This document shows, one piece after another, positions 22,654-38,705 of a stretch of 64,000 nt of DNA. Source of the stretch: Peptococcaceae bacterium BRH_c4a (GTDB lineage: Bacteria; Bacillota; Desulfotomaculia; Desulfotomaculales; Desulfocucumaceae); NCBI GenBank assembly GCA_000961585.1, contig LADN01000089.1, positions 1-64,000 on the forward strand, in the 5' to 3' direction. Within the stretch, counting starts at the first letter, position 1, and the number at the start of each line of letters is the position of its first letter. Made by a program: the position numbers and the translations under genes. Below the pieces are notes generated by a model, which was not told the DNA's origin, searched no databases, and saw nothing but the letters and a program-made list of their open reading frames with translations.

Positions 22654-23454
22654 TTATTTTCCTGAAAATACGGGGGGGCGCTTGGCAAAAAACGCTCTCA
22701 GACCTTCCTTGTAATCCTCTGTCTGGGCAGCCATGATCATATTCTGACGCTCGACCTCCAGGTGCCGTTCTAAAAGGCCTAGCATGGCGTGATTTAATTC
22801 TTCCTTGGCCCTGGCAAAGGCTAGTGTTGGGCCCTTGGCGAGCTTTTCCGCCCATTCTCTGGCGGTTTCCATCAGTTTTTCCGGCGCCACCACCTCGTGG
22901 ACGAAACCAAACACCAACGCCTTTTTGCTGTCATAAACGGGATCGAGAAAGATCATTTCACTGGCCCGGCCAAATCCCCCTAATAAAGAAACCCACAGAC
23001 ACCAAGCTCCGTCGGGCACTAAACCTATTGCTGTATAGGCTTGTTTAAACCTTGCGGACTCAGAGGCAATCCTCAAGTCACAGGCCAGGGCGATACTTAT
23101 CCCGGCGCCGCTGGCCGTGCCGTTTATGGCTGCCAGTACCGGTTTTGGCATTAGCCGGATTTCCATGATGATTCTGTTTAACAGCTTGGTTGCCTGGCGA
23201 AGCGGCTCGCTCGGGTCGGTATCCAGGAATTCACCAAAAGATTTTACATCTCCACCTGAACAAAAGGACCTTCCGGAGCCGGTTATGACCACAGCCCTTA
23301 TTTCCTGGTCACCGACGCATATTTCAAGCGCCTTTACCATTTCCTCCCCCAGTGTTATATCCAGAGCATTAAGCCTTTCGGGCCTGTTCAGAGTGATCCA
23401 GCCCACGCCGTTTTCCATGGCAAAAGAAATGGTTGCAAATTGTTGTTCGCACAT
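22654..23454 (-). CDS. Enoyl-CoA hydratase/isomerase family protein
   Basis: 266 residues from ATG 23454 (AAAGGGA site upstream; in-frame starts at 23463 and 23472 are possible). Crotonase-fold motifs: GVGWITLNRPERLNALD, the oxyanion-hole segments GSGRSFCSGGDVKSF and AINGTASGAGISIALACDLRIA, and the end GLRAFFAKRPPVFSGK. The segment AYTAIGLVPDGAW carries Asp in place of a Glu often used in hydration, so hydratase versus isomerase activity is open. Probable beta-oxidation step in this operon. Confidence 0.88.
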   Translation of the reverse strand: MCEQQFATISFAMENGVGWITLNRPERLNALDITLGEEMVKALEICVGDQEIRAVVITGSGRSFCSGGDVKSFGEFLDTDPSEPLRQATKLLNRIIMEIRLMPKPVLAAINGTASGAGISIALACDLRIASESARFKQAYTAIGLVPDGAWCLWVSLLGGFGRASEMIFLDPVYDSKKALVFGFVHEVVAPEKLMETAREWAEKLAKGPTLAFARAKEELNHAMLGLLERHLEVERQNMIMAAQTEDYKEGLRAFFAKRPPVFSGK

Positions 23455-23490
23455 GCCGTTCATCCCTTTCAAAAAGTTTTACTGCTGGCA

Positions 23491-24237
23491 CTAATCCATT
23501 AAATATCCTCCGCATACGTTCCATACCTGGCCAGTTACATAGCTGCTCCCATCGCTTCCCAGAAACGCTGCCAAGGCTGCGACATCATCCGGCTTGCCCA
23601 TTCTTCCCATGGGGTTTCTCTTTAAATATTGCTCAATTCCGTATTCTCCGGTTGCCCTTCCCATCGGGGTCTCGATCAGTCCTGGTGCAATGGCGTTCAC
23701 TCTTATCCCTAAAGGGCTGAGCTCCCTGGCCAGTGATTTTGTAAAAGCGTTTATCGCACCCTTGCTGGCCGCGTAATGGGACGCCGAACCCGACCCCGTT
23801 TTGCCCGCCACCGATGATATAGAAATGATTTTTCCTCTTTTTCTGTCTACCATTGAGGGCAAAACCAGCTTCGTGCAGTTATAGACCCCCTTAAAATTAA
23901 CGTCCAGCGTTCGGTCCATCTCTTCATCGCTCATCTTCAAAATAGACGTTTCCTTCCATATTCCGGCCGCATTAACTAAAATATTAATTTTAGTGTAGTA
24001 TCCCAAAATTTTTGCAAATACTTCTTTCAAACCTTGATGATTGGTTACATCAACGGAAAAGCTCTTGCATTCAACATTTTTTTGTTTTATTTCCTGCTCA
24101 ACTTCTTCAAGTTTGGCTGAGTCAAGGTCCAAAATGGCCAGATTGGAACCCTCTTCGGCATATTTCAAGGCTATTGCCCTGCCGATGCCGCTGGCCGCCC
24201 CGGTAATTACGGCCACCTCACCATTTAATGCTCCCAA
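23491..24237 (-). CDS. Short-chain dehydrogenase (FabG-like)
   Basis: 248 residues of classical SDR type: cofactor motif ITGAASGIGRAIAL, NAAG at about residue 88, the catalytic Ser in ISISSVAGKTG, YAASKGA with Tyr-x3-Lys, and the C-terminal GSDGSSYVTGQVWNVCGGYLMD. FabG-like enzymes reduce 3-oxoacyl-ACP. Here, between CoA ligase and enoyl-CoA hydratase genes, oxidation of a 3-hydroxyacyl-CoA is more likely (inference), since no HadH-type dehydrogenase is seen. TTG start with an AAGAGAG/GGGGG site. Confidence 0.88.
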   Translation of the reverse strand: MGALNGEVAVITGAASGIGRAIALKYAEEGSNLAILDLDSAKLEEVEQEIKQKNVECKSFSVDVTNHQGLKEVFAKILGYYTKINILVNAAGIWKETSILKMSDEEMDRTLDVNFKGVYNCTKLVLPSMVDRKRGKIISISSVAGKTGSGSASHYAASKGAINAFTKSLARELSPLGIRVNAIAPGLIETPMGRATGEYGIEQYLKRNPMGRMGKPDDVAALAAFLGSDGSSYVTGQVWNVCGGYLMD

Positions 24238-24269
24238 AGCTCTCTTGCCCCCTTCATAACTTACTGGAA

Positions 24270-25865
24270 TTATTGCTTTGACCGCTTTCCAAGAGCCCTT
24301 TGCCTGAGATCGGTTTTTAATATCTTACCCATCGGGTTGCGCGGAAGTGCGTCTATGAATTCCACGTTGCGGGGCACTTTAAAATCAGCCAGGCGCGAAC
24401 GGCAGAATTCGGTTATGTCCTGGACCGATACGGACATTCCTTTTTTCAGCACCACATAAGCCAAAATGTCTTCGCCCAGCTTTTCGTGGGGTTTGGCCAC
24501 CACAGCCGCTTCCAGGACGGCCGGATGCTCGTAAAGAGCATTCTCAATTTCCATGGAAGCGATGTTAAACCCGCCCCGGATGATGATGTCCTTTTTCCTG
24601 TCCACGTGGTAAATAAACCCGTCCTCATCCCTGACCACCAAGTCCCCGCTGTGCAACCAGCCTCCGAGCAGAGCCTTCTTTGTGGCCTCGCTATCTTTAA
24701 AGTAGCCCTTCATGATGGCCGGGCCCCGGTAGCAAATTTCACCGATTTGTCCGGCCTTTACGTCCTGGCCGCTGTCGTCAACGATGCGAACCTCTACGAG
24801 GGGCATTCCTTCTTTTCCCACCGACCCCAGCTTGCTCAGGGCAAATTCTCCGGGTAAATAGGTCCCCGTGGGTCCGGCCTCGGTTAAGCCGTAAGTCTGC
24901 CGAAGCTCTATGCCCGGGAAATGTTCATAAAGCTTTTTGATGATTTCCTTCGGCATGGGCGCGCCGCCGTAATCCATTAGCCGAATGCTTGAAAGATCGA
25001 ACCGGGGGGTCAGGCCGGAATCCAGGATGTAGGTATAGACCGAAGGAACGCCCACGTAAACAGTGGCTCTTTCTTCTTCCATGGCAGCCAGGGTGTCCTT
25101 GACCTGGAACTCGGGATCGATAACCAGAGTTGCACCGAAATAAAGGACGGACATGAGGTTGAAATGGCAGCCCGAGCTGGTGAAGAAGGGAAATGCGCTT
25201 TGGTAAACATCGGTGGGCCTTAATCCTAAAGCTCCCCCCACCGCTATTCCGGTGGCTACCGTGCTTCCGTGAGTATGCATGACGCCCTTGGGCAAGCCGG
25301 TGGTTCCGGAGGTATACAGCCAGTCGGCATCGTCATCTTCGCTCACTTCAGACAATTCCTTGCCCGCGGCTGTTCCGAAAGCCAGCACTTTTTCAAAGTC
25401 TATGCCTATTTGCGCCTCCCCTTTCCCCACCTCGATAATTTGATCCAAGGAAGTGATATTATTTTTGATCTCATTGACCATGGGAAGAAACTTCTTTTCC
25501 ACCACAAGATATCTGGCCCCGCAGTGATTGAGGATATATTCAAGTTCCCGGCCCACATATCGTGTATTTACGGGAACGTTAACGGCCCCCAGCTTGTGGG
25601 TGGAAAGAAATGTCAGCACGCATTCCGCCCCGGCAAAATTTGATAAGAATAGGGCCACCCGGTCCGATTTTCTCAAACCTATTTTATATAGGCCGCCGGC
25701 CAGTTTGCCGGTTAGCCAGTCCAGTTGCCTGTAGGTCAGACGCATCTGAAAATCCCGGCCGCTTTGGGCGACCACTGCCAGCTTGTTGGGATAGGCGTCG
25801 GATCTGGCTTTAAGCAGATCGGGCACGGTTTTCTCAGCGATGTTCTCCGGAAGCCTTTGACCCAC
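24270..25865 (-). CDS. Acyl-CoA synthetase (AMP-forming), copy 1
   Basis: 531 residues from GTG 25865, chosen because ATGGAGGTGA lies 6 bases upstream; ATG 25880 and 25895 are alternatives. ANL-superfamily motifs: LYTSGTTGLPKGVMHTH (P-loop), ELRQTYGLTEAGPTGTY (adenylate site), GWLHSGDLVVRDEDGFIYH and KDIIIRGGFNIASMEIE, and the catalytic Lys in PRNPMGKILKTDL near the end. It activates a carboxylic acid to its acyl-CoA. It lies 15 bases before the SDR gene's upstream region and after a second ligase on the same strand. Confidence 0.9.
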   Translation of the reverse strand: MGQRLPENIAEKTVPDLLKARSDAYPNKLAVVAQSGRDFQMRLTYRQLDWLTGKLAGGLYKIGLRKSDRVALFLSNFAGAECVLTFLSTHKLGAVNVPVNTRYVGRELEYILNHCGARYLVVEKKFLPMVNEIKNNITSLDQIIEVGKGEAQIGIDFEKVLAFGTAAGKELSEVSEDDDADWLYTSGTTGLPKGVMHTHGSTVATGIAVGGALGLRPTDVYQSAFPFFTSSGCHFNLMSVLYFGATLVIDPEFQVKDTLAAMEEERATVYVGVPSVYTYILDSGLTPRFDLSSIRLMDYGGAPMPKEIIKKLYEHFPGIELRQTYGLTEAGPTGTYLPGEFALSKLGSVGKEGMPLVEVRIVDDSGQDVKAGQIGEICYRGPAIMKGYFKDSEATKKALLGGWLHSGDLVVRDEDGFIYHVDRKKDIIIRGGFNIASMEIENALYEHPAVLEAAVVAKPHEKLGEDILAYVVLKKGMSVSVQDITEFCRSRLADFKVPRNVEFIDALPRNPMGKILKTDLRQRALGKRSKQ

Positions 25866-25910
25866 CTGTGTCACCTCCATTGTTGGGATTTCCAATCCCG
25901 GTGCTTTCCC

Positions 25911-27548
25911 TTATGCCCTTACCGGCGGCAGGCCCAGTTTTGCAGCGATGTCTTTGCGAAGCTCATTCTTTTTCACCTTCCCCGAGGAAGTCATGGGAAA
26001 TTCGCCGGCAATTTCCAGCCTTTCGGGAAGCTTTTGCTTGGCCAGATTATACCCCGAAAGAAAACTAACCACTTCTTCCAAGGTCAGGCTCTTACCACCA
26101 CGCAACCTTACATAGGCGCATACTTTTTCCCCCAACTTCAGGTCGGGCATGGCCACAACGGCTGCTTCCTCGATGTACGGGTGGGTATGAAGCAAATCCT
26201 CAATTTCTTTGGCGCTTATGTTTTCCCCCCCCCGTATGATGATGTCCTTTTTCCGGCCGGTAATGGTAAGATAGCTCTCATCGTCCAGTTTTCCAATGTC
26301 CCCCGTATGGAACCAGCCGTTGGGATCAAAACATTCATCATTGAGGGAAGGATTTCTATATCCCACAAAAAGCTCCGGTCCGTTGACCACTATTTCCCCC
26401 TCCTGGCCTACGGAAAGGGGGTTGTTGTCAAAATCAACGATGCGCACATCGTAGCCAACCACCATGCCGTCGGTTTCGGCCGCCTTCTTCAGGGGGCCAT
26501 CCCTTTTAATCCCCAGCGATACCGTAGGGGCCTCGGAAGATCCGTAAACCCTGAAAACTCTCCAGCCCACCTCATTCCAGGCCTCCCTGATCAGTTCCGG
26601 CGGCACGGAAGCACCACCGCAGGCAAAGGACCTGATGGAGCTGACGTCGTGCTTTTTGATTTCAGGGGAATGAAGCATGTGCTGCAGGAAGGGGGTTGCA
26701 GCCACTGTAAAGGTGCACTTTTCCTTTTCAATCAGTTTAATAGCTTTTTCCGGCTGCCAGATATCCATAAGCACGGCGGTGCAGCCTATAATAACAGGCA
26801 TCTCCAATGCATACAAAAAGCCGGTGATATGGGTGACGGGTGAAGACATAAAAACAATATCTTCCTGATCCAGTTCCAGAAAGTTCCTTACATTCATTAT
26901 TTCGCAGGTCAGCGTGTTGTGTGTATGCTGTACCCCTTTGGGCTCGGCCGTTGTGCCTGAAGTGTAGAGAAGGAGCTTGATGTCATTCGGATCAACCGGC
27001 GCTTCCAGGGGCGGCGGGCTGCCGTTGCCCTGCAGTAGTTCCTCCAGATTAACCATACCCCCTTGCGCATCATCGCCCGCCACGATGACATGGGAAATTT
27101 CAGGAAGGTTTGGCCAGAGCCTTTTCATCATCTGAACATAGTCGAAATTCCTAAAGACTGAAGGAATAATCATTACTTTAGACACCGACTGTTTAAGAAT
27201 AAATTCTACTTCCCGTTCCTTATATATGGGGATGATGGGGTTGATAACCGCCCCCAGTTTTGTAGCCGCCAGATTAATTATTGCTGTTTGGTGCCAGTTT
27301 GGCAGTTGAAAAGATACAACATCACCTTTTCTGATGCCAATGTTGTATAAGGATGTGGCCAGGTTATTGGCCATGGTCTCTATTTGCCGAAAGGTAAACC
27401 GGACCTTTTTATCCACCAGGGCTATCTTCTCAGGATATTGGTTTAATCTCTCTTTCATAAAATCGTCTATGGTTTTATTCAGCCAGTTCCCCGATTGTGT
27501 GTATTTGTACTTCATCTCTCCAGTAATCCTTATAGCGGAACCGCTCAA
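25911..27548 (-). CDS. Acyl-CoA synthetase (AMP-forming), copy 2
   Basis: About 545 residues. Motifs: LLYTSGTTAEPKGVQHTH, FRVYGSSEAPTVSLG, GWFHTGDIGKLDDESYLTI, KKDIIIRGGENISAKEIE, and the terminal MTSSGKVKKNELRK lysine. The start is uncertain: TTG 27548 has GGAGGGG 6 bases upstream, ATG 27515 (MKYKYTQSGNW) and ATG 27563 are alternatives. The frame further upstream overlaps the ABC ATPase gene and is excluded. Resembles medium-chain or cyclohexane-carboxylate-type CoA ligases by its general pattern only; the substrate is unknown. Confidence 0.88.
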   Translation of the reverse strand: MSGSAIRITGEMKYKYTQSGNWLNKTIDDFMKERLNQYPEKIALVDKKVRFTFRQIETMANNLATSLYNIGIRKGDVVSFQLPNWHQTAIINLAATKLGAVINPIIPIYKEREVEFILKQSVSKVMIIPSVFRNFDYVQMMKRLWPNLPEISHVIVAGDDAQGGMVNLEELLQGNGSPPPLEAPVDPNDIKLLLYTSGTTAEPKGVQHTHNTLTCEIMNVRNFLELDQEDIVFMSSPVTHITGFLYALEMPVIIGCTAVLMDIWQPEKAIKLIEKEKCTFTVAATPFLQHMLHSPEIKKHDVSSIRSFACGGASVPPELIREAWNEVGWRVFRVYGSSEAPTVSLGIKRDGPLKKAAETDGMVVGYDVRIVDFDNNPLSVGQEGEIVVNGPELFVGYRNPSLNDECFDPNGWFHTGDIGKLDDESYLTITGRKKDIIIRGGENISAKEIEDLLHTHPYIEEAAVVAMPDLKLGEKVCAYVRLRGGKSLTLEEVVSFLSGYNLAKQKLPERLEIAGEFPMTSSGKVKKNELRKDIAAKLGLPPVRA

Positions 27549-27570
27549 CACAATCCCCTCCATCGTGTCA

Positions 27571-28275
27571 TTAGACCGACAAGTATTTTCGCTTAATATC
27601 TTCTTGATCGTCAAAATCATCCCAGCTACCCTTAAAAACGATTTTTCCTCCGTCAATCAAATAAACATATTCGGTACAGTAGCGCGAAAACCACAAGTTC
27701 TGTTCGGCCAGCAGGATGGCCATATTCCACTTCTGACAGAAGCCGCGGATGACCATGGCCAGTTCCTTTACGATTAGTGGGGCCAGGCCTTCTGCCGGTT
27801 CATCCATTAGGACCAGTTCCGGCCGCCCCATAAAGGTTCGGGCCACAGTGAGCATTTGCTGTTCACCCCCGCTCAGCTGCCCTCCTTTGCGGTTGCGCAG
27901 TTTCATCAAAAGGGGGAAGGTTTCCAAAACATACTCCATAGCAAAGGGCTCCGTTCTGCCCGCAGTGGCGTACCGACCCACAGCCAAGTTGTCAGTTACT
28001 GAAAGCTCCTGGTAAATACGCCGGTCCTCGGGCACAAACCCCAGTCCCATCCTTGCTTTCTGATAGGTCTTGCAGTTGGTGATATCCCTTCCCTTGAAAT
28101 TGACCGCGCCCTTTATTTTGGGGCCCATACCCATAATGGCTTTCAGTGTGGTTGTTTTCCCAGCCCCGTTTCGGCCCAGCAAAGCAACACCTTTGCCCTC
28201 GGGAATATGCAGGGATATTTGCTGTACAATGTAGTTGGTGCCGTAGTATGCCTCGAGATTTTCAACTGAAAGCAT
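27571..28275 (-). CDS. livF: ABC importer ATPase, LivF type
   Basis: 234 residues from ATG 28275 (MLSVENLEAYYG, family start). Walker A LLGRNGAGKTTTLKAIMG, signature QLSGGEQQMLTVARTFMGRPELVLMDEPAEGLAP with Walker B, and the LivF-type FCQKWNMAILLAEQNL switch region. It is the second ATPase of a hydrophobic-amino-acid-type (HAAT) importer. It overlaps livG by 14 bases. Systems of this family in catabolic operons often import carboxylates rather than amino acids (established for several, not shown here). Confidence 0.93.
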   Translation of the reverse strand: MLSVENLEAYYGTNYIVQQISLHIPEGKGVALLGRNGAGKTTTLKAIMGMGPKIKGAVNFKGRDITNCKTYQKARMGLGFVPEDRRIYQELSVTDNLAVGRYATAGRTEPFAMEYVLETFPLLMKLRNRKGGQLSGGEQQMLTVARTFMGRPELVLMDEPAEGLAPLIVKELAMVIRGFCQKWNMAILLAEQNLWFSRYCTEYVYLIDGGKIVFKGSWDDFDDQEDIKRKYLSV

Positions 28276-29044
28276 CGAAATCGCCCTCTTTTCCCAGGTA
28301 TACTTCCTGTACGGCCGGGTCTTTGCGTATCTCCTCCGGCTTTCCACTGGCCACCAGCCTTCCGTAGTATAAGACGGAAATGTTGTCGGCCAGGCTGAAT
28401 ACAACGTCCATATCGTGTTCGGTGAGAAAAACAGTGAACCTCCTGTTTGAGTGCAGCCTTTTGATTAAATTTACCGTGTCCCGGGTTTCCTCCGGTGACA
28501 TTCCGGCCGTGGGTTCGTCAAGAAGCAGAAGGTCCGGCTCCTGGGCCAGGGCCATGGCAAGTTCCAATCGCTTCTTGTCGCCGTGGGATAATGTTTTAAC
28601 ATAGATATTTCTTTTATCAGTCAAACCGATTTCATCAAGAATGGCCCCGGTTTTTTCCAGGACATACCTGGGGGGCCTGAAAAAGTCCCGGGGCACCCGT
28701 ACCTTCTTTTGCCACCCGGCATAGGCCTGAAGGGCCACATAGAGACTTTCCTCAACGCTCATGTCGGGGAATACCCGGGCTACCTGAAAACAACGTCCGA
28801 TGCCCATTTGCACCCTCTTCCAGGAGACCTGGCGGGTGATATCCCTGCCCCTGTATACGACTGCCCCCTCATTGGCCAGATTTTCCCCGCTTATGACCGA
28901 AAAAAGCGTGGTTTTACCCGCCCCGTTAGGCCCTATCAAGACCCGGATTTCTCCTGCCTCCAGGCAGAGGGAAACCCCGTCCAAGGCCTTGAACTGGTGA
29001 TAGTATTTCTCAATGTCCCTGATTTCCAGCACTATGTCACTCAT
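28262..29044 (-). CDS. livG: ABC importer ATPase, LivG type
   Basis: 260 residues from ATG 29044 (GGGGGGG 9 bases upstream). Walker A IGPNGAGKTTLFSVISG, signature LSHGDKKRLELAMALAQEPDLLLLDEPTAGMSPEE, and the LivG-typical FTVFLTEHDMDVVFSLADNISVLYYGRLVASG. It pairs with LivF. It overlaps livM by 8 bases and livF by 14, which suggests a coupled polycistron. Confidence 0.93.
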   Translation of the reverse strand: MSDIVLEIRDIEKYYHQFKALDGVSLCLEAGEIRVLIGPNGAGKTTLFSVISGENLANEGAVVYRGRDITRQVSWKRVQMGIGRCFQVARVFPDMSVEESLYVALQAYAGWQKKVRVPRDFFRPPRYVLEKTGAILDEIGLTDKRNIYVKTLSHGDKKRLELAMALAQEPDLLLLDEPTAGMSPEETRDTVNLIKRLHSNRRFTVFLTEHDMDVVFSLADNISVLYYGRLVASGKPEEIRKDPAVQEVYLGKEGDFDAFS

Positions 29045-30086
29045 TGATAACATCCCCCCCGGGCATTAGCTTGGAAGCGGCAGCACTACCCTCATTACGA
29101 GAGGATTTTTTTATTGAGGGTTTTCCTATCAGCCACGAAGTAACCAGCCCCAGAATCCCGCCTGGAAAGGCCAGCACCACCGTCAGCAGCAAAAGGCCCA
29201 TGATCAGGCTGGACATGCCTGTCATAGCCCGTGTAAGGTATTCAAAGATTCCAAAAATTACTGCCCCGGTTGCCGGACCCCAGAAAAAGTTGGCCCCGCC
29301 CATCAGTGTAAGCAGGATGGGGGTCGTGGAGTATATCCAAGTAGCCATCTCGGGCATTAAAACTCCGGTCAGCGGTCCATAAACGGCTCCGGCCAGGCCG
29401 GCTATCGACCCGGCTATGGCAAAAGAAATTAACTGGTACAACCTGACATTGATGCCTAAAAAACTTGCCCGGACATGGTTTTGTTTGATTGACATTAAAA
29501 TGCGGCCGAAATTTGAGTGAGTAACGGCCCAGAGAATAAATAGACCCAGGCTGACACAAATGAGTATAAGGTAATAATAACTAACGGGAGATGCCAAACT
29601 TATCTGGGCCAAACCAAGGTTAATGGTTCCCCTGGGTATGTCCGCCAGGCCGTTTTCTCCTCCGGTTGCAGGCCACTTGAAAATTACCTGGTAAACAATC
29701 TGGCCGAGGGCCAGGGTTAAAATAGCGAAGTATATGCCGCTGGCCCGGAGTGAGATGTACCCCAAGAAAGCTGCCACCAGTCCCCCTGCTATAACAGCCA
29801 GTATTATTCCTCCGGATAGTGAGGCCCCGCTCTTTACATACAGAGCGGCCACATAAGCACCCGTGGCAAAGTATGCCGCCTGTCCAAAAGAAATTAACCC
29901 GGTGTAATTAAACAGCTGATTAAAGCTTGCGGCAAACAAGATATAAATCAATACCAGGCTGGCACGAAAAGTGATGCCCGGATTTGCCCATAGAGGAAGA
30001 CTTAAGGCCAGCACAATAATAATGGCAGCAGTTGCTAATCTTAACAGTATAAAATTTTTTGTTATTAATTGTCTGAACAAAGTCAA
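29037..30086 (-). CDS. livM: ABC importer permease, LivM type
   Basis: 349 residues, about nine or ten hydrophobic segments. LivM marks: NYTGLISFGQAAYFATGAYVAAL, YFAILTLALGQIVYQV, and AIAGSIAGLAGAVYGPLTG followed by LTLMGGANFFWGPATGAVIFG. TTG start with GAGGTGGG. It forms the channel with LivH. The C-terminal ~30 residues are polar. Confidence 0.93.
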   Translation of the reverse strand: MTLFRQLITKNFILLRLATAAIIIVLALSLPLWANPGITFRASLVLIYILFAASFNQLFNYTGLISFGQAAYFATGAYVAALYVKSGASLSGGIILAVIAGGLVAAFLGYISLRASGIYFAILTLALGQIVYQVIFKWPATGGENGLADIPRGTINLGLAQISLASPVSYYYLILICVSLGLFILWAVTHSNFGRILMSIKQNHVRASFLGINVRLYQLISFAIAGSIAGLAGAVYGPLTGVLMPEMATWIYSTTPILLTLMGGANFFWGPATGAVIFGIFEYLTRAMTGMSSLIMGLLLLTVVLAFPGGILGLVTSWLIGKPSIKKSSRNEGSAAASKLMPGGDVINE

Positions 30087-30092
30087 CCCACC

Positions 30093-30974
30093 TCATTTTG
30101 TGGATATACTGCTCTCAAAAAGCCCATGGGGCTTGACAAGTAAAATTAGGGCCATCGCTGCATAAAACGCTATCCCCGGTATTTGCGGGAGGTAAATGGT
30201 TCCGAAAGAATCCACCAGGCCCAAGATAATTGCCGCCAGAAAAGCTCCTCCGATGTTTCCCAGCCCGCCCACCACAACTACGCCAAAAGCCTGAATGATA
30301 AAGCTCGATGCCATGGTAGGCGTGATGGCCTGGTTAGGGGCGCCAATTCCGCCCCCAATGGCGGCAAGAAATATCCCAAAGGCAAAAATCATTGTGTAGA
30401 TAATGGGTACGTTGATTCCCAGCGCACTGGTCATGTCCGGGTCACCGGCCGCAGCCCTGATAATTTTGCCGGCAGGAGAGCGGTTTATCAACAGGTTGAG
30501 CAATACAGCCACCGCCACTCCTGCGGCTATAATCACCAAAGAATAACTGGGAATTATGGTATTGAAAATTTCAGTACCCCCTCCCAGGCCCTTGGGGGAT
30601 GGCAGGGCTAAAAACTGCAGGCCCCATATACCCTCAACGCTTCCTTCAATGACCAGCAGAAGGGCGTATGTGGCTATCAGCATGTAAGCCTCATCAAGTT
30701 GATAAAACCGCCTGATTATCAGCCTCTCCAAAATTGCGCCGATAATGGCCAGTATTATTCCGCACAAAAAAACTATTAGAAAGAATTTTAGGGGGGAAAG
30801 TGCATGGTTTCGGATAAAGGTATAGGTTAAATAAACCCCCAGCATAAAGAATCCGCCGTGTGCAAAATTAAGTATTTTGAGAACACCAAAAACCAGGGAC
30901 AGACCCGAGGCCACCAGGAATACCATCATGGCCCAGGTCAAACCGTTAACCAGCGGTAAAAACAGCGTTTCCAA
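30093..30974 (-). CDS. livH: ABC importer permease, LivH type
   Basis: 293 residues with eight or so membrane segments; LNFAHGGFFMLGVYLTY, RAAAGDPDMTSALGINV (EAA-like loop) and VVVGGLGNIGGAFLAAIILGLVDSFG are LivH features. TTG start with GGAGGGG. It is separated from the substrate-binding protein gene by a 104-base gap holding a strong hairpin. Confidence 0.93.
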   Translation of the reverse strand: METLFLPLVNGLTWAMMVFLVASGLSLVFGVLKILNFAHGGFFMLGVYLTYTFIRNHALSPLKFFLIVFLCGIILAIIGAILERLIIRRFYQLDEAYMLIATYALLLVIEGSVEGIWGLQFLALPSPKGLGGGTEIFNTIIPSYSLVIIAAGVAVAVLLNLLINRSPAGKIIRAAAGDPDMTSALGINVPIIYTMIFAFGIFLAAIGGGIGAPNQAITPTMASSFIIQAFGVVVVGGLGNIGGAFLAAIILGLVDSFGTIYLPQIPGIAFYAAMALILLVKPHGLFESSISTK

Positions 30975-31015
30975 ACCAACCCCTCCATTTTAGCGTTAAT
31001 CCCCAGTTTTGTGTA

Positions 31016-31062
31016 GGTGACCTGGTTTCCCGGCTGTATCCGGGTGATAAACCAAGTCACCC
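31016..31062 (-). terminator. Hairpin between binding-protein and permease genes
   Basis: Long stem with arms GGTGAC-x-TGGTTT...CCCGG and CCGGG...AAACCA-x-GTCACC around loop CTGTAT, no T-run. It sits just after the binding-protein stop. Such hairpins usually protect the upstream mRNA from 3' decay or cause partial termination, giving more binding protein than permease (known for ABC importers; inferred here). Confidence 0.7.
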
Positions 31063-31078
31063 TTTAACAATTGCCTGC

Positions 31079-32365
31079 CTACTCAAGTTTAAGAGGCTTC
31101 CCCGGGGAAGGTGGTTCAATAAGGTCGTCTCCCTTATACACCTTAAATTCATCTACTTTCCACCCGGGTTCTTCTTTAACAGGTACCACATGGATGATGT
31201 TGACATCTTTGATCGTTTGGTGGTCCTCGGCGCGGATAGTGCGCTTTCCGCTCACCGAGTCAAAGGTCAAGCCCTCCAAAGCCTTGATGACGGCGTCGGT
31301 ATCCGTGGCTTTTGCCTTTTCAATGGCCGCTTTATAGGCCATCAGGGCACTGTGGGCTTCCCCTACCCACCCGGTGGGGTACTTGTCCTTATACTCCTTG
31401 ACGTATTCGTCATACACCTTTTTAGCCATCGGGCTGTCTTTATAAGCTTCATAGTACCAGTGGGTCCCAATCCAGTGGGGTGGGGTCATATTGCCCATGG
31501 CCTTGGGCACCAAAAATTCATTGGCCGAATCAACCATAACATCTATTTTATCAAAGAATGCGTACGGGACGGCCTGCCTGAACATTGTTACCGCGTCTCC
31601 GCCGTATTCAGAGGTGAAAACTCCCTTTGCTTTTGAATTCAGGACTGCGGTGATGAAGTTTTTATAGTCGGTGGCCCCGTAAGGCGCCCTCTGTACTGAA
31701 ACGATCTCCAATTCCTTTTTAGCTATTTCGGGATAATATTTTTTAAGCCCAGCCTCGAAGTTATCCCATGTGCTCCTGCCATATTCATGGTCCGGGATAA
31801 TGCATCCCCATTTGGTGGTGTTCGGATATCTTTCGGCCATCAGCTTGGCCATGGCCCGTTCCCTCATATAGGGGTTATCCGTAATGCGGAAATAGTGTTT
31901 GTTAAAATTCTGATGGGTCAGGCGGTCAGAATGCGCGGCTGTTGTGATTATGACCCCCTTTTCTTTCTCCATCAGCGGGCTTACGGCCAGAGCCACAGCG
32001 CTGCTGGCTACGCCAAAATACATATTTATACCCTGGGAAAGAAGTTCCCGGGCCACAGCCACTCCGGTGTCCGGATTGGCTTTTGTGTCCCTGATCACCA
32101 GTTCCACCGGGCGCCCCATTATGCCGCCGGCGTCATTCACCTGTTTGACCGCTATTTTTGCTCCGCGCTCCATTTCTTCGCCCAGAATTGCCTGGGAACC
32201 GCTTAAGGGAACAATAACCCCGAATTTAATGGGCTCTTTGCCCTCCGCCTTTTTACCTTCCGACGGCGCCGACTCTTTTTTTTGCCCCCCGCACCCCGCC
32301 ACCAATACCATCACCAGCAACGAAATCGTCAGGGCAGCCAAAAGGCGTGAAAAACCTCTCTTCAA
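31079..32365 (-). CDS. Branched-chain-amino-acid-type substrate-binding lipoprotein
   Basis: 428 residues. Lipoprotein signal: basic MKRGFSR, hydrophobic core, lipobox LVAGC with Cys about residue 25. The mature part is a Periplasmic-binding-protein type 1 fold (peripla_BP_6): IKFGVIVPLSGSQAILGEEMERGAKIAVKQVNDAGGIMG..., then NPDTGVAVARELLSQGI and the usual C-terminal lobe. It captures the substrate for LivHMGF. The ligand cannot be read from sequence; operon partners (CoA ligases) suggest an organic acid. First gene of the leftward operon; TTG start. Confidence 0.93.
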   Translation of the reverse strand: MKRGFSRLLAALTISLLVMVLVAGCGGQKKESAPSEGKKAEGKEPIKFGVIVPLSGSQAILGEEMERGAKIAVKQVNDAGGIMGRPVELVIRDTKANPDTGVAVARELLSQGINMYFGVASSAVALAVSPLMEKEKGVIITTAAHSDRLTHQNFNKHYFRITDNPYMRERAMAKLMAERYPNTTKWGCIIPDHEYGRSTWDNFEAGLKKYYPEIAKKELEIVSVQRAPYGATDYKNFITAVLNSKAKGVFTSEYGGDAVTMFRQAVPYAFFDKIDVMVDSANEFLVPKAMGNMTPPHWIGTHWYYEAYKDSPMAKKVYDEYVKEYKDKYPTGWVGEAHSALMAYKAAIEKAKATDTDAVIKALEGLTFDSVSGKRTIRAEDHQTIKDVNIIHVVPVKEEPGWKVDEFKVYKGDDLIEPPSPGKPLKLE

Positions 32366-32495: not shown

Positions 32496-32511
32496 TGCAA
32501 AATATATACCA
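32496..32511 (-). promoter_or_regulatory. Sigma-54 (-24/-12) promoter of the leftward transport/catabolic operon
   Basis: Minus strand TGGTATATATTTTGCA: GG and GC with exactly 10 bases between, consensus TGGCAC-N5-TTGCA with two changes (both in the first half). The predicted start is near 32484, 119 bases upstream of the binding-protein gene. The divergent gene encodes a sigma-54 activator. Confidence 0.82.
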
Positions 32512-32560
32512 TGACATAAGGGTACATTCTGACCTTAAAAAAACAGGAAAAGAAACCCTT

Positions 32561-32600
32561 TGGTACAGAATTCAACCATTTTTGGTTCGGTAATTAACCA
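32561..32600. promoter_or_regulatory. Two tandem 18-bp activator sites TGGT-N10-ACCA
   Basis: Site 1, 32561-32578, TGGTACAGAATTCAACCA; site 2, 32583-32600, TGGTTCGGTAATTAACCA. Centres are 22 bp apart (two helical turns) and about 85 and 107 bp upstream of the sigma-54 start. This is the classic position of upstream activating sequences. A third copy lies at 35641. Confidence 0.75.
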
Positions 32601-32672
32601 TCTAAGTTTCTGAAAGGGTTGAAATAAGATATAACTGGAATAAATTAAAAAAATAAGCAAGGGGGGCTGGAA

Positions 32673-33989
32673 ATGAGCAAGACCCTTGACCAGATAAAAA
32701 CTATATTTGAATTGTTTTCCGAGGCAGTTCTCATTTTAGATGGGGACTTTAAGGTGATATGGAAAAACAGAACCGCCTCTTCCAGGTTGCCTGTCAGCCT
32801 CAACTCAGTAAAAGCACCAAAGAATTTAACCGGGGGAAAAATCGACAAAGTAACAATCCCCACCGTACACGGCGAGGAAAGCGCCTGCATGGCGCCGCTC
32901 CGCGATCTGTTTATCCTGTTTATTCCCGACCCTTTTCCCAAAGCCAAAACCGACAGAACCCCGGCGCCCAACAACCCGCAAAAAGATTTAAAAAATATTC
33001 CGTCCGCCTACATTTATACCAGTAAGGCCATGATAGAAACCATCAATCTTTCCACAAGGGCCGCCAGTGTTGATACAAACATCCTGATCACTGGTGAAAC
33101 CGGTATCGGAAAGACTTTTCTGGCCAAACTGATTCATACCAACTCACCCCGTAAAGATGGCCCCTTTGTATCCATAAATTGCGGGGCTATTCCCCCGACG
33201 TTGCTGGAATCTGAATTGTTCGGATACGAGAAGGGCGCCTTTACCGGAGCCGATCGGACAGGCCGGGTTGGACTTCTGGAAACAGGGGTTCTGGGAACAG
33301 TTTTCCTGGATGAAATAGCCGAACTGTCGATAAATCTTCAAGTCAAACTTCTAAACGCCATTGAAGAGAAAAAAATTACCCGTATAGGGGGCCGGAAGCC
33401 TGTCGAATTGGATATACGCATTATTGCCGCCACCAACAAGGACCTGACCAAAATGGTAAGTGAAGGAAATCTCCGGGAAGATCTTTTTTACCGGCTTAAT
33501 GTTATTTCACTGGTTATTCCCCCTCTGCGCAGCCGCCCGGAGGATATCTTGCCTCTGGCCAATCATTTCCTGGAAAAATACAACCTCAAATACAATGTGC
33601 ATAAAACCTTTAACCCCGACGTTATCCAGGCGTTCATTCAATACGGCTGGCCGGGAAACATACGTGAACTGCAAAATGCCATAGAGCGGATGATGGTCAT
33701 GTCGGAAAAGGAGAAGATAACGGTTCAAGATTTACCACCGCATATTCTGGCGCCCAGGGCCGTACTAACACCCCCGCCGCCTTCCAATAAAGAGTCAAAC
33801 CTGCAAAACGAGAGGGAGACCTTGGAGCGTGAGTTAATTCTTAAATCGCTCCGGGAAAATAAAAGCATCCGAGGGGCGGCACGCAAGCTGGGAATTAGTC
33901 ACGCCACCCTCTTGAGAAAAATTGATAAACTGAATTTGAATGGCGCAATTCTTGCTTCTAGTAAGGGTAGAGGTGGAAAACGTGAATAA
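32673..33989 (+). CDS. Sigma-54-dependent transcriptional activator (PAS-AAA-Fis HTH)
   Basis: 438 residues. A short PAS-like sensor (about 1-60: FSEAVLILDGDFKVIWKNRTA) is followed by a linker and the AAA+ domain: Walker A ITGETGIGKTFLA, the sigma-54-contacting GAFTGA loop in FGYEKGAFTGADRTG, Walker B GTVFLDEIAEL, and YGWPGNIRELQNAIERM. The C-terminal Fis-type helix-turn-helix is SIRGAARKLGISHATLLRKI. ATG with AAGGGGGG upstream. It probably senses the substrate or its CoA ester. It lies between its predicted binding sites and co-transcribed ligase 3. Confidence 0.93.
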   Translation: MSKTLDQIKTIFELFSEAVLILDGDFKVIWKNRTASSRLPVSLNSVKAPKNLTGGKIDKVTIPTVHGEESACMAPLRDLFILFIPDPFPKAKTDRTPAPNNPQKDLKNIPSAYIYTSKAMIETINLSTRAASVDTNILITGETGIGKTFLAKLIHTNSPRKDGPFVSINCGAIPPTLLESELFGYEKGAFTGADRTGRVGLLETGVLGTVFLDEIAELSINLQVKLLNAIEEKKITRIGGRKPVELDIRIIAATNKDLTKMVSEGNLREDLFYRLNVISLVIPPLRSRPEDILPLANHFLEKYNLKYNVHKTFNPDVIQAFIQYGWPGNIRELQNAIERMMVMSEKEKITVQDLPPHILAPRAVLTPPPPSNKESNLQNERETLERELILKSLRENKSIRGAARKLGISHATLLRKIDKLNLNGAILASSKGRGGKRE

Positions 33990-35508
33990 AATCAATTTCG
34001 CAAATATACTTGAATCCACAGTAAACCGTTTACCCAACCAGTTGGCCCTAATAACCGAAGAAGGCAGCTTAACCTATGAGGAGCTGTACTTACATGTAAA
34101 TTCTCTTGCACGAGGTCTCATGGATCTCGGAATAAAGCAGGGGAATACAGTTGCCTGCCTGCTGCCAAATGGTCTGGAAATAGTCACAACCCATTTTGCC
34201 GCGGCAAAAATCGGGGCTACCCTGGTGCCCCTTAACCATTACCTCAAGCCGCCGGAATTACAAATTCTCCTTAAACATTCCGGGGCTATGCTTCTCATTG
34301 CCCACTCCTCCTTTGCCAAACATATTATGGCATTAGACAAAGCCGTCATTGAAAAGTTGATTATAATATGGGCGGGTGAATCCGCCCCTGGAGACACAAA
34401 TTTTAAAGAAATAATCAATTCATATCCCCGGCTGGATATTTATCCTGAAACAACCGTTAATGAACTATGCAGCATTCTTTATACCTCCGGAACAACCGGC
34501 AATCCAAAAGGTGTGATGCGCACCCATGAGAATAATTACTGGGCCGCGATAAACATGGCTCTTCATATTCCCTACAAGCCAGGGGATCTGGAACTTTTTT
34601 TGCTGCCAATGTCTACCATAGGCTTCTTTAATATTTTTGCTCCAAACATTATCGGCGGATCAACCGTCCTGATCCAGGAAAGTTTTGAAAAGGGAAAAAT
34701 TTTAGAAGCCATCGACGGAAACCGTATTACCCGTATTTATCTGGCATCTCCCATGTGGGATATGCTTATTTCCAACCAGAGATTTTTTGAGTACGATACC
34801 TCAAGCCTGGAGCAATTACTGGCCGGGTCCGCCCCTATGCCTGTGGAAACAAAGATCCGTATGAGCAAGGTATTTTCGGCCGCAAAAATTTACGAAATAT
34901 GGGGAATGACGGAAGGCGGATTAATAAGCCTCGGGCCGGAAAAAGCCTTTGAAAAGCTGGGATCCATCGGCAAGCCGATTCATTTTAACGAGGCTAAAAT
35001 AGTGGATGAGCAAAGTTTCAAAGTTACCCCCGGTATGGTCGGAGAAATAGTTATACGGGGAAAATCCGTCATGCCCGGCTACTACAAGAATCCCGAAGAG
35101 ACCAATAAGTGCTTTAATGAAGGCTGGTTTCATACCGCTGACATGGCCCGTTATGACGATGAGGGATATATTTACCTGGTCGGCCGGAAATCGGACATGA
35201 TTATCTTTGGTGACAACAAAGTGTACCCGAAGGAAGTGGAAGAAGTCCTTCTGATGCACCCGCATGTTATTGAGGCTGCCGCTTTTGGTTTACCCGACAA
35301 AGTATGGGGAGAAATAGCGGTGGCCGTGGTGGTGAAACAAAAGGATTCCCCCGTTACCCAAAAGGAATTGAATGATTTTATGGAAAAGTATATTGCCAAT
35401 TACAAAAAACCGAAATTTATTTTTTTTAGCGATGAACTCCCGAGGACAGCCACTGGTAAAATAATTAAGAATGAATTAAAAAAAATATACATCGGTGAAA
35501 TATCTTAA
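33982..35508 (+). CDS. Acyl-CoA synthetase (AMP-forming), copy 3
   Basis: 508 residues from GTG 33982, which overlaps the regulator's last codons by 8 bases and has AGAGGTGG upstream. ANL motifs: SILYTSGTTGNPKGVMRTHE, KIYEIWGMTEGGLIS, GWFHTADMARYDDEGYIYL, RKSDMIIFGDNKVYPKEVEE, and the terminal PRTATGKIIKNELKK lysine. Coupling to the activator suggests that it makes the inducing CoA ester or handles a related acid (inference). An intrinsic terminator follows 18 bases later. Confidence 0.91.
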   Translation: MNKINFANILESTVNRLPNQLALITEEGSLTYEELYLHVNSLARGLMDLGIKQGNTVACLLPNGLEIVTTHFAAAKIGATLVPLNHYLKPPELQILLKHSGAMLLIAHSSFAKHIMALDKAVIEKLIIIWAGESAPGDTNFKEIINSYPRLDIYPETTVNELCSILYTSGTTGNPKGVMRTHENNYWAAINMALHIPYKPGDLELFLLPMSTIGFFNIFAPNIIGGSTVLIQESFEKGKILEAIDGNRITRIYLASPMWDMLISNQRFFEYDTSSLEQLLAGSAPMPVETKIRMSKVFSAAKIYEIWGMTEGGLISLGPEKAFEKLGSIGKPIHFNEAKIVDEQSFKVTPGMVGEIVIRGKSVMPGYYKNPEETNKCFNEGWFHTADMARYDDEGYIYLVGRKSDMIIFGDNKVYPKEVEEVLLMHPHVIEAAAFGLPDKVWGEIAVAVVVKQKDSPVTQKELNDFMEKYIANYKKPKFIFFSDELPRTATGKIIKNELKKIYIGEIS

Positions 35509-35525
35509 AAAAATCCGGTAACTCT

Positions 35526-35557
35526 AAGAGCGCTTTTCAGGCGCTCTTTCTATTTTT
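35526..35557 (+). terminator. Intrinsic terminator after ligase 3
   Basis: AAGAGCGC, loop TTTTCAG, GCGCTCTT followed by a T-rich tail (TCTATTTTT). It separates the regulator-ligase transcript from the thiolase operon. Confidence 0.82.
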
Positions 35558-35640
35558 AAACATGCATTTGGTTAACATTCATATCATTGCTAAGTTTTAA
35601 TGCATTAAGCTAACCAGTGGGAACCACCCATTAAATAAAG

Positions 35641-35658
35641 TGGTTCATATCCGTACCA
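35641..35658. promoter_or_regulatory. Third activator site upstream of the thiolase operon
   Basis: TGGTTCATATCCGTACCA has the same TGGT-N10-ACCA layout as the two sites at 32561-32600. Its centre is about 97 bp upstream of the start predicted from the -24/-12 element at 35720. Rest of 35558-35832: apart from this site and the promoter I see no gene. Confidence 0.68.
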
Positions 35659-35719
35659 AATTAAACCTGCGATTGCCGGAAACCCTTAAAAATAACCTGA
35701 ATATCCGGTTCGTAAAAAC

Positions 35720-35735
35720 TGGCAGCGATATTGCA
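35720..35735 (+). promoter_or_regulatory. Sigma-54 (-24/-12) promoter of DUF35-thiolase-dehydrogenase operon
   Basis: TGGCAGCGATATTGCA matches TGGCAC-N5-TTGCA at all defined positions but one, with the exact GG-N10-GC spacing. The predicted start is near 35747. It implies common control with the divergent transport operon. Confidence 0.83.
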
Positions 35736-35832
35736 AAAGTAGACTTCAGCAGGTAAAAAGGCATGGGAGATATTTTCCTGCGCTGAGGTAAAGGAACAGG
35801 TTCTATGGAACTTTACAGTGTCCGGGGAGGTG

Positions 35833-35970
35833 ATGGTGTCCCCGCTGGCCTCCGAAGATGAGTTAAAGGCATTAAGGAAGCTGGATTCGGGAGAGCTTTT
35901 ATTAAACGGCGGTAAAAAGCAAGTTGACTTTTGGGATTGGATAAAGCTGATGAGCCGGAAAGAATCATAA
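35833..35970 (+). CDS. Small open frame in the thiolase operon leader
   Basis: 45 codons from ATG 35833 (or GTG 35836, which has GGGGAGG at a better distance). The product starts MVSPLASEDELKALRKLDSG and ends in a Trp-rich helix (FWDWIKLMSRKES). It is charged, soluble, with no known family. It lies between the sigma-54 promoter and the DUF35 gene, so it would be the first translated frame of that mRNA. It may be a small protein, a leader peptide, or the open C-terminal remnant of a longer gene, since the frame is open upstream to a stop near 35740. Confidence 0.4.
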   Translation: MVSPLASEDELKALRKLDSGELLLNGGKKQVDFWDWIKLMSRKES

Positions 35971-35992
35971 TCCGATGGGAGGAAATTTCCAG

Positions 35993-36409
35993 ATGAATGA
36001 CAATGCCATTCCTATTAAAAACGGATTCTTCTTGTGGGAGGGCGCCGAACCAAAGTTATTGATCAGCAAATGCAAACTGTGCAATACCCCTGCCTTCCCC
36101 CAAACTTCGTACTGCCCAAATTGCGCCTCTGACCAGGTTGAAGTTGTGCAACTGGGCAGCAGGGGGAAGTTGCGCAATTTTACCAAAGTGCGCAACATGC
36201 CCCCAGAATGCAGAATAGCAGTCCCTTACGGTGTCGGAATAGCGGAATTTCCTGAGTACAACATCCGTATAATGGGGCTTTTGACCATCCACGACTTAAG
36301 CAAGCTGAGGCCGGGAATGGAAATCAAACTGGTGGTCGGCAGGGTGTATGAAGAGCAGGGCCAGGAGGTTTTCACGTACAAGTTCCAACCTGTGGAGGAG
36401 GGTATATAA
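35993..36409 (+). CDS. Zn-ribbon/OB-fold (DUF35) acyl-CoA-associated protein
   Basis: 138 residues from ATG 35993 (GGGAGG 10 bases upstream). The N-terminal rubredoxin-like zinc ribbon CKLCNTPAFPQTSYCPNC has two CxxC pairs; an OB-fold follows (GRGKLRNFTKVRN-like strand to the end). DUF35 proteins partner thiolases of the SCP-x type, bind acyl-CoA and are encoded directly beside them, as here. It ends one base before the thiolase ATG. Confidence 0.88.
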   Translation: MNDNAIPIKNGFFLWEGAEPKLLISKCKLCNTPAFPQTSYCPNCASDQVEVVQLGSRGKLRNFTKVRNMPPECRIAVPYGVGIAEFPEYNIRIMGLLTIHDLSKLRPGMEIKLVVGRVYEEQGQEVFTYKFQPVEEGI

Positions 36410-37549
36410 ATGCGCGAAGTAGTCATAGCAGGAGTAGGGATACATCCGTTCGGCCGCTTTCCAGACAAAGACTACCGGGAGATAGGGCGTACTGCGGTCG
36501 TGATGGCGTTGAAGGACGCCAACATGCAGTGGAAGGATATCCAGACAGCCTATGTGGGCAATGTCATGGCGGAAATGGCCAAAGGGCATAATGTTTTACA
36601 GCCTCTGGGCGTAACCGGCATACCTATAATAAACGTTGAAAACGCCTGTGCCAGCGGGGGAGCAAGCCTAAGACTGGCTTACGATGCCATCGCCAACGGG
36701 CTTTATGATGTGGCCCTGGTAATGGGGGTGGAAAAAGCCCCCAAGGGGTTTATCGCCAACTGCGGCTACGATCGCTGGCAGATGTGGACTGGCATGGGAG
36801 TGAACCCCCTGTATTTTGCCATGAATATCCAGGATCATATGATTCAGTACGGCACAACCTCTGAGCAACTGGCCAAGATTTCGGTGAAAAACCACCGCAA
36901 CGCCACCAAGAATCCCTATGCCATGTACCGCAAAGAATTCAGCATCGAAGAAGTGCTCAATTCCCCGATGGTATGCGAACCGCTTACGCTTCTTATGCTC
37001 TGCGCGCCCAATGAGGGATCTGCAGCCGCTGTTCTCTGCGCAAAGGACGTGGTCCACAAGTATACCACTAAATATGTAACCATAGCAGCCACCGCACTCT
37101 GCACCAGGCTGCCCCAAGACATGTTTCTGCCGGCTGTCTCCGCCCCCACCAACCTGGATCATCCAACCCTGACCGAGCGCACCGCCAGTATGGCATATAA
37201 AATGGCGGGAATCGGACCGGAAGACTTAAGCCTTGTTGAACTGCAGGATACCGACGCCGGGTCGGAGATCCTTTATACCGAGGGGCTTGGCCTATGTCCC
37301 AAAGGAGAAGCCGGCCGGCTGATTGACGAAGGAGTGACCGAACCGACGGGCCGCATACCTGTAAATGTGAGTGGCGGCTTGCTTTCTAAAGGGGAGCCTC
37401 TGGGGGCGTCCAGCCTGGGCCAGGTGGTGGAATTAACCTGGCAATTGCGCGATGACGCAGGTCCACGCCAAATCCAGGGAGCCAAAGTAGGCCTGGGTCA
37501 TACCGAAGGCGCTGGAGGAAACTGCTCCGTAATCATACTAAAACGCTAA
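36410..37549 (+). CDS. Thiolase family protein (SCP-x/lipid-transfer type)
   Basis: 379 residues. The active-site cysteine lies in NVENACASGGASLRLAYDAI, the ELQDTDAGSEIL region replaces the usual ELHDCFT, and the C-terminal GLGHTEGAGGNCSVIIL carries the His and second Cys positions. Full NEAFA-type motifs of classical thiolases are absent, as expected for the SCP-x-like group that works with DUF35 partners. The likely role is thiolytic cleavage of a 3-oxoacyl-CoA, perhaps branched or cyclic (inference). Fused start/stop with the DUF35 gene. Confidence 0.9.
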   Translation: MREVVIAGVGIHPFGRFPDKDYREIGRTAVVMALKDANMQWKDIQTAYVGNVMAEMAKGHNVLQPLGVTGIPIINVENACASGGASLRLAYDAIANGLYDVALVMGVEKAPKGFIANCGYDRWQMWTGMGVNPLYFAMNIQDHMIQYGTTSEQLAKISVKNHRNATKNPYAMYRKEFSIEEVLNSPMVCEPLTLLMLCAPNEGSAAAVLCAKDVVHKYTTKYVTIAATALCTRLPQDMFLPAVSAPTNLDHPTLTERTASMAYKMAGIGPEDLSLVELQDTDAGSEILYTEGLGLCPKGEAGRLIDEGVTEPTGRIPVNVSGGLLSKGEPLGASSLGQVVELTWQLRDDAGPRQIQGAKVGLGHTEGAGGNCSVIILKR

Positions 37550-37568
37550 AAAATGAGGTGAAAATATA

Positions 37569-38705
37569 TTGCAGGAGTTCACATCTGATCAATTAATGCT
37601 GCGCGATATGGCGCGTCGCGTTGCAGACGAAAAAATATCCCCTCTGGCCGCTGAAATCGACGCCAAGAGCCATTACCCGGACGAACTGGTGGACCTCTTC
37701 CGGAAACTGGACCTGTTTGCCATCCCTTACCCCGAAAAATACGGCGGGGCGGGGCAGGGAGTTCTCAGCGCCTGCATAATGGCAGAGGAATTGGCAAAGG
37801 TTTGCAGCAACTCCGCCATGGTTCCCACCACGCAGGAACTGGGAGCCACCCCCATACTGCTCGGGGGCAATGAGGATCAAAAGTCGAAATACCTGCCTCC
37901 CATATGCAAAGGCGAGGTACGGGTTTCTTTCGCCTTAACGGAGCCGGAAGCCGGATCGGACGTAGGAAATATACAAACCAAAGCCGTACGAAAAGGCAAT
38001 GAATATATAATCAACGGCGTGAAACGGTTTATTTCCTACTCGGACGTTGCGGACATAATGGTGGTCTTTGCCAAAACCGACCCCGCCGCCGATGCCCGCG
38101 GTCTAAGCGCCTTAATCGTTGACGCTCATTCCCCGGGCATAACCATTGGAAAGCACGAGGATAAAATGGGATTCCGCGGCTTCAATGCGTGCGAGGTTTA
38201 CTTTGACGAGGTTCACGTCCCGGCGGAAAATCTGCTGGCGGGAGAAGGCCAGGGGTTTAAGTTGGCCATGAAAACCCTTGACAAGACGCGCCCCATTGTA
38301 GGGGCAATAGGAGTGGGACTGGCCGAGGGATGCCTTGAGTATGCCATAAACTACAGTAAACAGCGGGTTCAATTCGGCAAACCCATCTCTTCATTCCAGG
38401 GCCTGCAGTTTATGATGGCCGATATGGCCATCCTTGTCGAGGCTTCCCGTCAGATGGTTTACAAGGCTGCCCGGGCCGCCGACAATGAAGATCCCGAAAT
38501 GGCCAAGCTTGGCGCTATAGCAAAATGTTTAGCAACCGACACTGCCATGCGGGTATCTGTTGATGCGGTACAAATTCTCGGCGGGTCTGGCTACATGCGT
38601 GAATACCCGCTTGAGAGAAGAATGCGGGAAGCAAAACTACTGCAAATCGTTGAAGGAACTAATCAAATTCAGCGTGTTGTAATTGCTAACAAAATTTTAT
38701 CATAG
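37569..38705 (+). CDS. Acyl-CoA dehydrogenase
   Basis: 378 residues. FAD-binding motif VSFALTEPEAGSDVGNIQTKAV, DKMGFRGFNACEVYFDEVHVPAENLLAG, and the C-terminal YMREYPLERRMREAKLLQIVEGTNQIQRVVIA with the catalytic Glu in the VEGTNQIQ segment. It introduces the alpha-beta double bond of acyl-CoA; electrons would go to an ETF encoded elsewhere. TTG start with GAGGTG upstream. It closes the operon. Confidence 0.94.
   Translation: MQEFTSDQLMLRDMARRVADEKISPLAAEIDAKSHYPDELVDLFRKLDLFAIPYPEKYGGAGQGVLSACIMAEELAKVCSNSAMVPTTQELGATPILLGGNEDQKSKYLPPICKGEVRVSFALTEPEAGSDVGNIQTKAVRKGNEYIINGVKRFISYSDVADIMVVFAKTDPAADARGLSALIVDAHSPGITIGKHEDKMGFRGFNACEVYFDEVHVPAENLLAGEGQGFKLAMKTLDKTRPIVGAIGVGLAEGCLEYAINYSKQRVQFGKPISSFQGLQFMMADMAILVEASRQMVYKAARAADNEDPEMAKLGAIAKCLATDTAMRVSVDAVQILGGSGYMREYPLERRMREAKLLQIVEGTNQIQRVVIANKILS

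Follow-up and report, generated by a model that had tools for sequence, protein, structure and literature searches.

TyrR of Escherichia coli and its TyrR box are one comparison system for the activator and DNA sites considered here. In Azospirillum, the TyrR box reads TGTAACG-N4-CTTTACA, and an arginine, a histidine and a lysine of the helix-turn-helix (HTH) domain were named as DNA contacts (PMC6375630). Regulons governed by one-component sigma-54 activators, or enhancer-binding proteins (EBPs), are known in Clostridiales (Nie et al. 2019, PMC6615313) and in Desulfovibrio vulgaris (PMC4641369); according to the main texts of these two studies, the motifs of the upstream activating sequences (UAS) were derived comparatively, target operons commonly have several UAS, and the UAS lie ~100 bp from the promoter. 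For 15 of 39 Clostridiales groups, the main text gives a motif of the form TGT-N10-12-ACA (PMC6615313). Here, we analyzed a 64,000-nucleotide stretch from Peptococcaceae bacterium BRH_c4a (contig LADN01000089.1, positions 1 to 64,000; hereafter the window), in which the genes for an EBP and an acyl-CoA ligase are flanked by two -24/-12 promoters and three copies of the dyad TGGT-N10-ACCA. Judging from sequence comparisons, this EBP is very probably a locus-specific sigma-54 activator that binds the three dyads and drives both -24/-12 promoters, thereby co-inducing uptake, activation and beta-oxidation.

A preliminary description of this DNA had reported two -24/-12 elements with exact GG-N10-GC spacing and three 18-bp dyads about 85, 107 and 97 bp upstream of the predicted starts; all five are present, and their positions, strands and dyad centres are given in Table 1. 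Taken singly, such elements are common. The window has 7 copies of TGGT-N10-ACCA, where shuffles predict 0.9, and the genome has 121, where the reversed control gives 47. Matches to -24/-12, with two mismatches allowed, number 24 in the window, and 35 would be expected, so that the rarity lies in the combination. We therefore defined a composite as a dyad followed, after a gap of 46-76 bp, by TGG-N9-TGCW, and subjected each intergenic region to 20,000 rounds of dinucleotide shuffling. Two dyads in the left region had P = 5e-5 and one dyad in the right region P = 0.0037, and the composite appeared in none of the 20,000 shuffles of either region. A pattern search of the 3.49-Mb genome returned three composites, two of which are the promoters described here; the third, on contig C10, lies inside an open frame and has a poor promoter match. 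The genome search for TGGTWC-type dyads near -24/-12 elements that the preliminary description had proposed likewise led back to this locus, since the other examined copies lie in frames of more than 150 codons with no -24/-12 element within ~200 bp. With composites outside open frames found only here, the regulon looks confined to the locus, judged by these elements. We also considered that the dyads and -24/-12 matches are chance occurrences or shared background palindromes, as the genome-wide excess of the dyad, several checked copies of which fall in open frames, and the frequency of -24/-12 matches alone would allow. Their joint absence from shuffles, their conservation at orthologous loci and their association with one class of activator (both below) make this hardly credible, and chance was rejected as an account of the dyads.

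Orthologous loci were found by protein similarity alone and then scanned for the pre-specified dyad. Among the loci compared, the EBP and ligase occur as a pair in just two others: one in a genome of the same family (G003, locus L130; EBP 45% and ligase 42% identical) and one in a Clostridiales Family XIII genome (G113, locus L039; EBP 47% and ligase 50% identical). A broad contig scan returned mostly unrelated EBPs alike only in the AAA+ domain and HTH, with L039 as the only full-length orthologue. A phylum search found no further EBP-ligase pair; it did yield three relatives that share the HTH class of the activator and have N-termini of a different, longer kind, and these prompted the comparison of HTH class with dyad described below. 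At L130, one exact and one one-mismatch dyad (TGGTACAATAATGGACCA and CGGTACATATTTGAACCA; centres -104.5 and -86.5), 18 bp apart, lie 69 and 51 bp before the -24/-12 element TGGCATAAATATTGCA and face a divergent operon encoding a TRAP transporter, an MmgE/PrpD-like protein and a lyase, as named from inspection of the translations. At L039, the dyad TGGTAGATTTTCGTACCA (centre -108.5) lies 73 bp before TGGCATAGTATTTGCT and faces an operon for EtfB, EtfA and a hydroxyacyl-CoA dehydrogenase/hydratase fusion, again by inspection of translations. The dyad-to-start distances at these loci (86-109 bp) match those of the window, and both composites of G113 sit at its EBP-ligase locus. The strict composite occurs in 5 of 113 class genomes, two of them those with the EBP pair, a descriptive count, as these loci had themselves served to shape the composite patterns. 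Finding the same dyads and promoters before different operons suggests that the EBP-ligase pair keeps its sites even where the operons under its control differ. The tandem dyads of the window had been described as two helical turns apart; their distance is indeed 22 bp, but the spacing is not conserved, with 18, 21 and 22 bp all occurring. We also observed that in L039 (9908-10102) one dyad is flanked on both sides by good -24/-12 elements of opposite orientation, TGGCATAGTATTTGCT on the plus and TGGCATTGTTTTTGCT on the minus strand, the latter facing the 3' end of the ligase gene.

The activator gene was described as having an intact GAFTGA motif and a Fis-type HTH. Both are intact, together with the Walker A motif GETGIGKT in an AAA+ domain matching PF00158 (Sigma54_activat; 3.4e-64), and for the C-terminal HTH Pfam favors HTH_50 of the TyrR type (1.4e-10) over Fis-type HTH_8 (4.9e-5). 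The recognition helix reads GISHATLLRK. AlphaFold run on the single sequence was confident in the HTH part only, with helices at 372-395, 399-406 and 410-419 and His410 opening the recognition helix, and a PDB search with the HTH gave merely weak NtrC-type matches. The fold of the N-terminal ~110 residues is uncertain (PAS_8 at E = 0.17, below the cut-off, and a structure model that is not confident there), and Pfam found no receiver domain in the protein. The genome encodes rpoN (PF04552, 7.4e-61, on contig C23) and holds 27 full-length matches to the sigma-54 activator domain.

We next asked which activator of the genome would read the dyads. Among those of its EBPs that were aligned, the HTH of the window protein is the best match to both orthologues (identity 0.57 and 0.61, against at most 0.46 for the others). 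The earlier proposal that the local EBP binds the dyads thus has comparative support from orthologous loci, HTH match and HTH-class association. A second EBP in the window (43620-45725, plus strand) has a CBS pair, PAS domains and an HTH of another type; with a helix of GISRTKLYDR and an HTH identity of 0.26-0.28 to the orthologues, it was rejected as the dyad binder. Elsewhere in the genome, an EBP at C37:161075-162001 (L148) carries the His-Ser helix AHSSVVRK, and a TGGTGC-type dyad, TGGTGCTCCACCGCACCA, lies near a -24/-12 element beside its gene. Such an activator of the same helix class could in principle bind the window dyads, leaving the local EBP neither sole nor main controller. We regard this as very unlikely, given that base 5 is not the same in the C37 sites (TGGTGC rather than TGGTWC), that both orthologues resemble the local EBP more closely in the HTH, and that the dyads accompany the EBP-ligase pair in three genomes.

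The main role of the tandem dyads might instead be autoregulation of the EBP gene, negative or positive, and the sigma-54 elements might be weak or not used at all. These dyads lie only 73-112 bp before the start codon of the EBP gene, and a weak sigma-70-like site is found at 32619-32646. The sigma-70-like match is no better than those in shuffles (3 found, 6.7 expected) and shares no positions with the dyads; the third dyad fronts the downstream operon, a long way from the promoter of the EBP gene; and the spacing from dyad to -24/-12 element is conserved across genomes. Autoregulation as the main role is accordingly very unlikely, while additional autoregulation of the EBP gene by the tandem dyads is possible. 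Against control of both operons by the local EBP stand three further points: the minus-strand promoter has TGGT, which is rarer than the usual TGGC; transcripts from the plus promoter would have a 5' leader of ~245 nt; and the C37 EBP might cross-talk at the window dyads. This would-be leader, which separates the plus promoter from the DUF35 gene, contains a 50-codon open frame (35818-35970, plus strand), whose C-terminal 45 residues gave no Pfam match.

The HTH of the activator also allowed a wider comparison of recognition helices and dyads. Among the EBP loci first compared, TGGT-N10-ACCA was found within ~600 bp of 7 of 12 EBPs with an SxRxAxxxLGxxH helix and of 2 of 128 others (p = 1.5e-7). 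The comparison was then extended to HTH_50 EBPs from the whole phylum (100 fetched, 89 with readable flanks). Of all 256 four-base N10 dyads, the three most over-represented in these flanks were TGGA (23, 1.95 expected), TGGT (18, 2.1 expected) and TGAT (16, 2.3 expected). By inspection of the flanks (L226-L365), TGGT went with His followed by S/A/P/V, TGGA with His followed by Thr, and TGAT with Gln. Merging 181 distinct EBPs into 120 clusters at 65% identity, we found TGGT-N10-ACCA beside 17 of 24 His-(S/A/P/V) EBPs, or in 9 of 11 clusters against 1 of 109 others (Fisher p = 5e-11). TGGA accompanied 7 of 23 His-Thr clusters and 12 of 97 others (p = 0.04), and TGAT 12 of 40 Gln clusters and 6 of 81 others (p = 0.002). 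In an agnostic scan of helix position against dyad, His at this position with TGGT ranked top of 1854 combinations (p = 4e-5 uncorrected, ~0.07 after Bonferroni correction). With the rule fixed, a later sample (n = 37) gave 7/8 versus 1/29 for TGGT (p = 6e-6), 5/9 versus 2/28 for TGGA (p = 0.005) and 5/16 versus 1/21 for TGAT (p = 0.04). Class-matched dyads had a -24/-12 element within 20-160 bp in 48% (TGGT), 70% (TGGA) and 61% (TGAT) of cases, compared with 11% for random flank positions.

Several aspects of these data weigh against so general a rule. The split between S/A/P/V and Thr was drawn after the first 89 flanks had been inspected, and the later sample is rich in relatives of the first set, with just three His-small members below 65% identity, two of which fit. 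On a tree built from the AAA+ domain only, helix class changes 13 times and dyad type 12 times; for TGGT this leaves four supported independent contrasts, of which on average 3.4 agree and 0 oppose, too few for significance, and the TGGA and TGAT classes show no resolution. Taken together, the association of the TGGT-N10-ACCA dyad with a His-(S/A/P/V) helix is well supported by the sequences compared, and the TGGA/His-Thr and TGAT/Gln parts are likely but weaker. As to the rule as a whole, we lean slightly toward the view that, in TyrR-type (HTH_50) sigma-54 activators of the phylum and its neighbors, the residues that open the recognition helix determine which bases stand at positions 3 and 4 in the 18-bp palindrome, His plus a small residue specifying TGGT-N10-ACCA, His plus Thr TGGA-N10-TCCA (often TGGAAA-N6-TTTCCA), and Gln TGAT-N10-ATCA.

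The genes on either side point to what such a regulon might do (Table 1). The structure of the minus-strand operon is predicted from tight same-strand spacing, and its short-chain dehydrogenase/reductase (SDR) would act as the 3-hydroxyacyl dehydrogenase. Acyl-CoA dehydrogenase, enoyl-CoA hydratase, hydroxyacyl dehydrogenase and thiolase make up a full round of beta-oxidation. The dehydrogenase and thiolase lie on the plus strand and the hydratase and SDR on the minus strand, so neither operon alone has the full round, which gives two-sided control a reason: a single cycle is divided between the two. The terminator-like hairpin after the ligase gene would set the ligase apart from the plus operon; shuffled sequence gives hairpin matches of this kind at a frequency that is not clearly lower. 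At another locus of the same genome (G000:C76:11331-14922; L156, L178), an EBP with a different HTH adjoins a related thiolase (42% identical), which suggests parallel regulator-catabolic modules.

Table 1. Positions of promoters, putative activator sites and genes at the divergent locus, numbered from the first nucleotide of the window.
Feature	Position	Strand	Remarks
-24/-12 promoter TGGTATATATTTTGCA	32496-32511	minus (32511-32496)	GG-N10-GC; fronts transport/ligase operon
-24/-12 promoter TGGCAGCGATATTGCA	35720-35735	plus	GG-N10-GC; fronts DUF35-thiolase-dehydrogenase operon
Dyad 1 TGGTACAGAATTCAACCA, putative activator site	32561-32578		centre -84.5 from predicted +1 of minus promoter
Dyad 2 TGGTTCGGTAATTAACCA, putative activator site	32583-32600		centre -106.5 from predicted +1 of minus promoter
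Dyad 3 TGGTTCATATCCGTACCA, putative activator site	35641-35658		centre -96.5 from predicted +1 of plus promoter
One-component sigma-54 activator (EBP)	32673-33989	plus	438 aa; Pfam Sigma54_activat, HTH_50
AMP-forming acyl-CoA ligase	33976-35508	plus	PF00501, 1.8e-80; start overlaps end of EBP gene
Terminator-like hairpin	35526-35548	plus	after ligase gene
Operon 1, overall	21917-32365	minus	
Operon 1, ABC transporter, branched-chain amino-acid type	substrate-binding protein 31079-32365	minus	with permeases and two ATPases
Operon 1, two acyl-CoA ligases	25911-27656, 24270-25895	minus	
Operon 1, SDR	23491-24237	minus	
Operon 1, enoyl-CoA hydratase family protein	22654-23472	minus	
Operon 1, nitroreductase-like protein	21917-22600	minus	
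Operon 2, overall	35993-38705	plus	
Operon 2, DUF35 Zn-ribbon/OB protein	35993 or 35975 to 36409	plus	alternative starts
Operon 2, SCP2-type thiolase	36410-37549	plus	
Operon 2, acyl-CoA dehydrogenase	37569-38705	plus	

In the mechanism we propose, in which DNA binding, dependence on sigma-54, inducer and substrate are all inferred, dimers of the TyrR-type HTH would bind the 18-bp palindromes TGGTWC-N6-GWACCA, two before the divergent operon and one before the downstream operon. The short N-terminal domain would be relieved by a signal, most likely a carboxylic acid substrate or its CoA thioester; since the ligase is the conserved partner of the EBP, the ligase product could be this signal. 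The AAA+ ring, with ATP, would then act through its GAFTGA loop to open the sigma-54 polymerase waiting at both -24/-12 promoters. Uptake, activation and a full round of beta-oxidation would thereby be co-induced, with dehydrogenase and thiolase supplied from the plus operon and hydratase and 3-hydroxyacyl dehydrogenase from the minus operon.

Parts of this locus resemble systems already described. As in the benzoylsuccinyl-CoA thiolase BbsAB and other DUF35-thiolase complexes, the DUF35 and thiolase genes are adjacent, and their products match chains of 7pxp and 6esq, but the score of 240 bits is well below the BbsB equivalog cut-off of 750. The activator shares with TyrR the HTH_50 domain and an 18-bp palindrome, but its half-site is TGGT rather than TGTA, it scores 243 bits against a TyrR equivalog cut-off of 576, and no ACT domain was found in it; the TyrR box TGTA-N10-TACA was found beside none of the 89 HTH_50 EBPs. 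Nor does it reach the cut-off of the equivalog for PrdR, the proline reductase regulator (342 against 795 bits). No report of TGGT-N10-ACCA was found in the open-access literature, supplements not included. The main texts on Clostridiales and D. vulgaris make no mention of CoA ligases, TyrR or TGGT-type motifs (PMC6615313, PMC4641369).

The anaerobic acid-degrading bacteria of this group have dozens of sigma-54 activators with few known targets, and here one of them can be linked both to predicted sites and to a catabolic target. An association between helix residues and dyad would also be a cheap means of proposing targets for many other activators; if the rule is true, two residues would predict the sites, and hence the regulons, of hundreds of uncharacterized activators, that of the window being one case. 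In its architecture, the locus is like the regulons described in the main texts of the Clostridiales and D. vulgaris studies, with a local EBP, UAS dyads and -24/-12 elements before adjacent catabolic operons (PMC6615313, PMC4641369). It is thus a new local regulon of the known EBP-UAS-sigma-54 type, and the rule linking recognition helix to dyad may be the part that is new.

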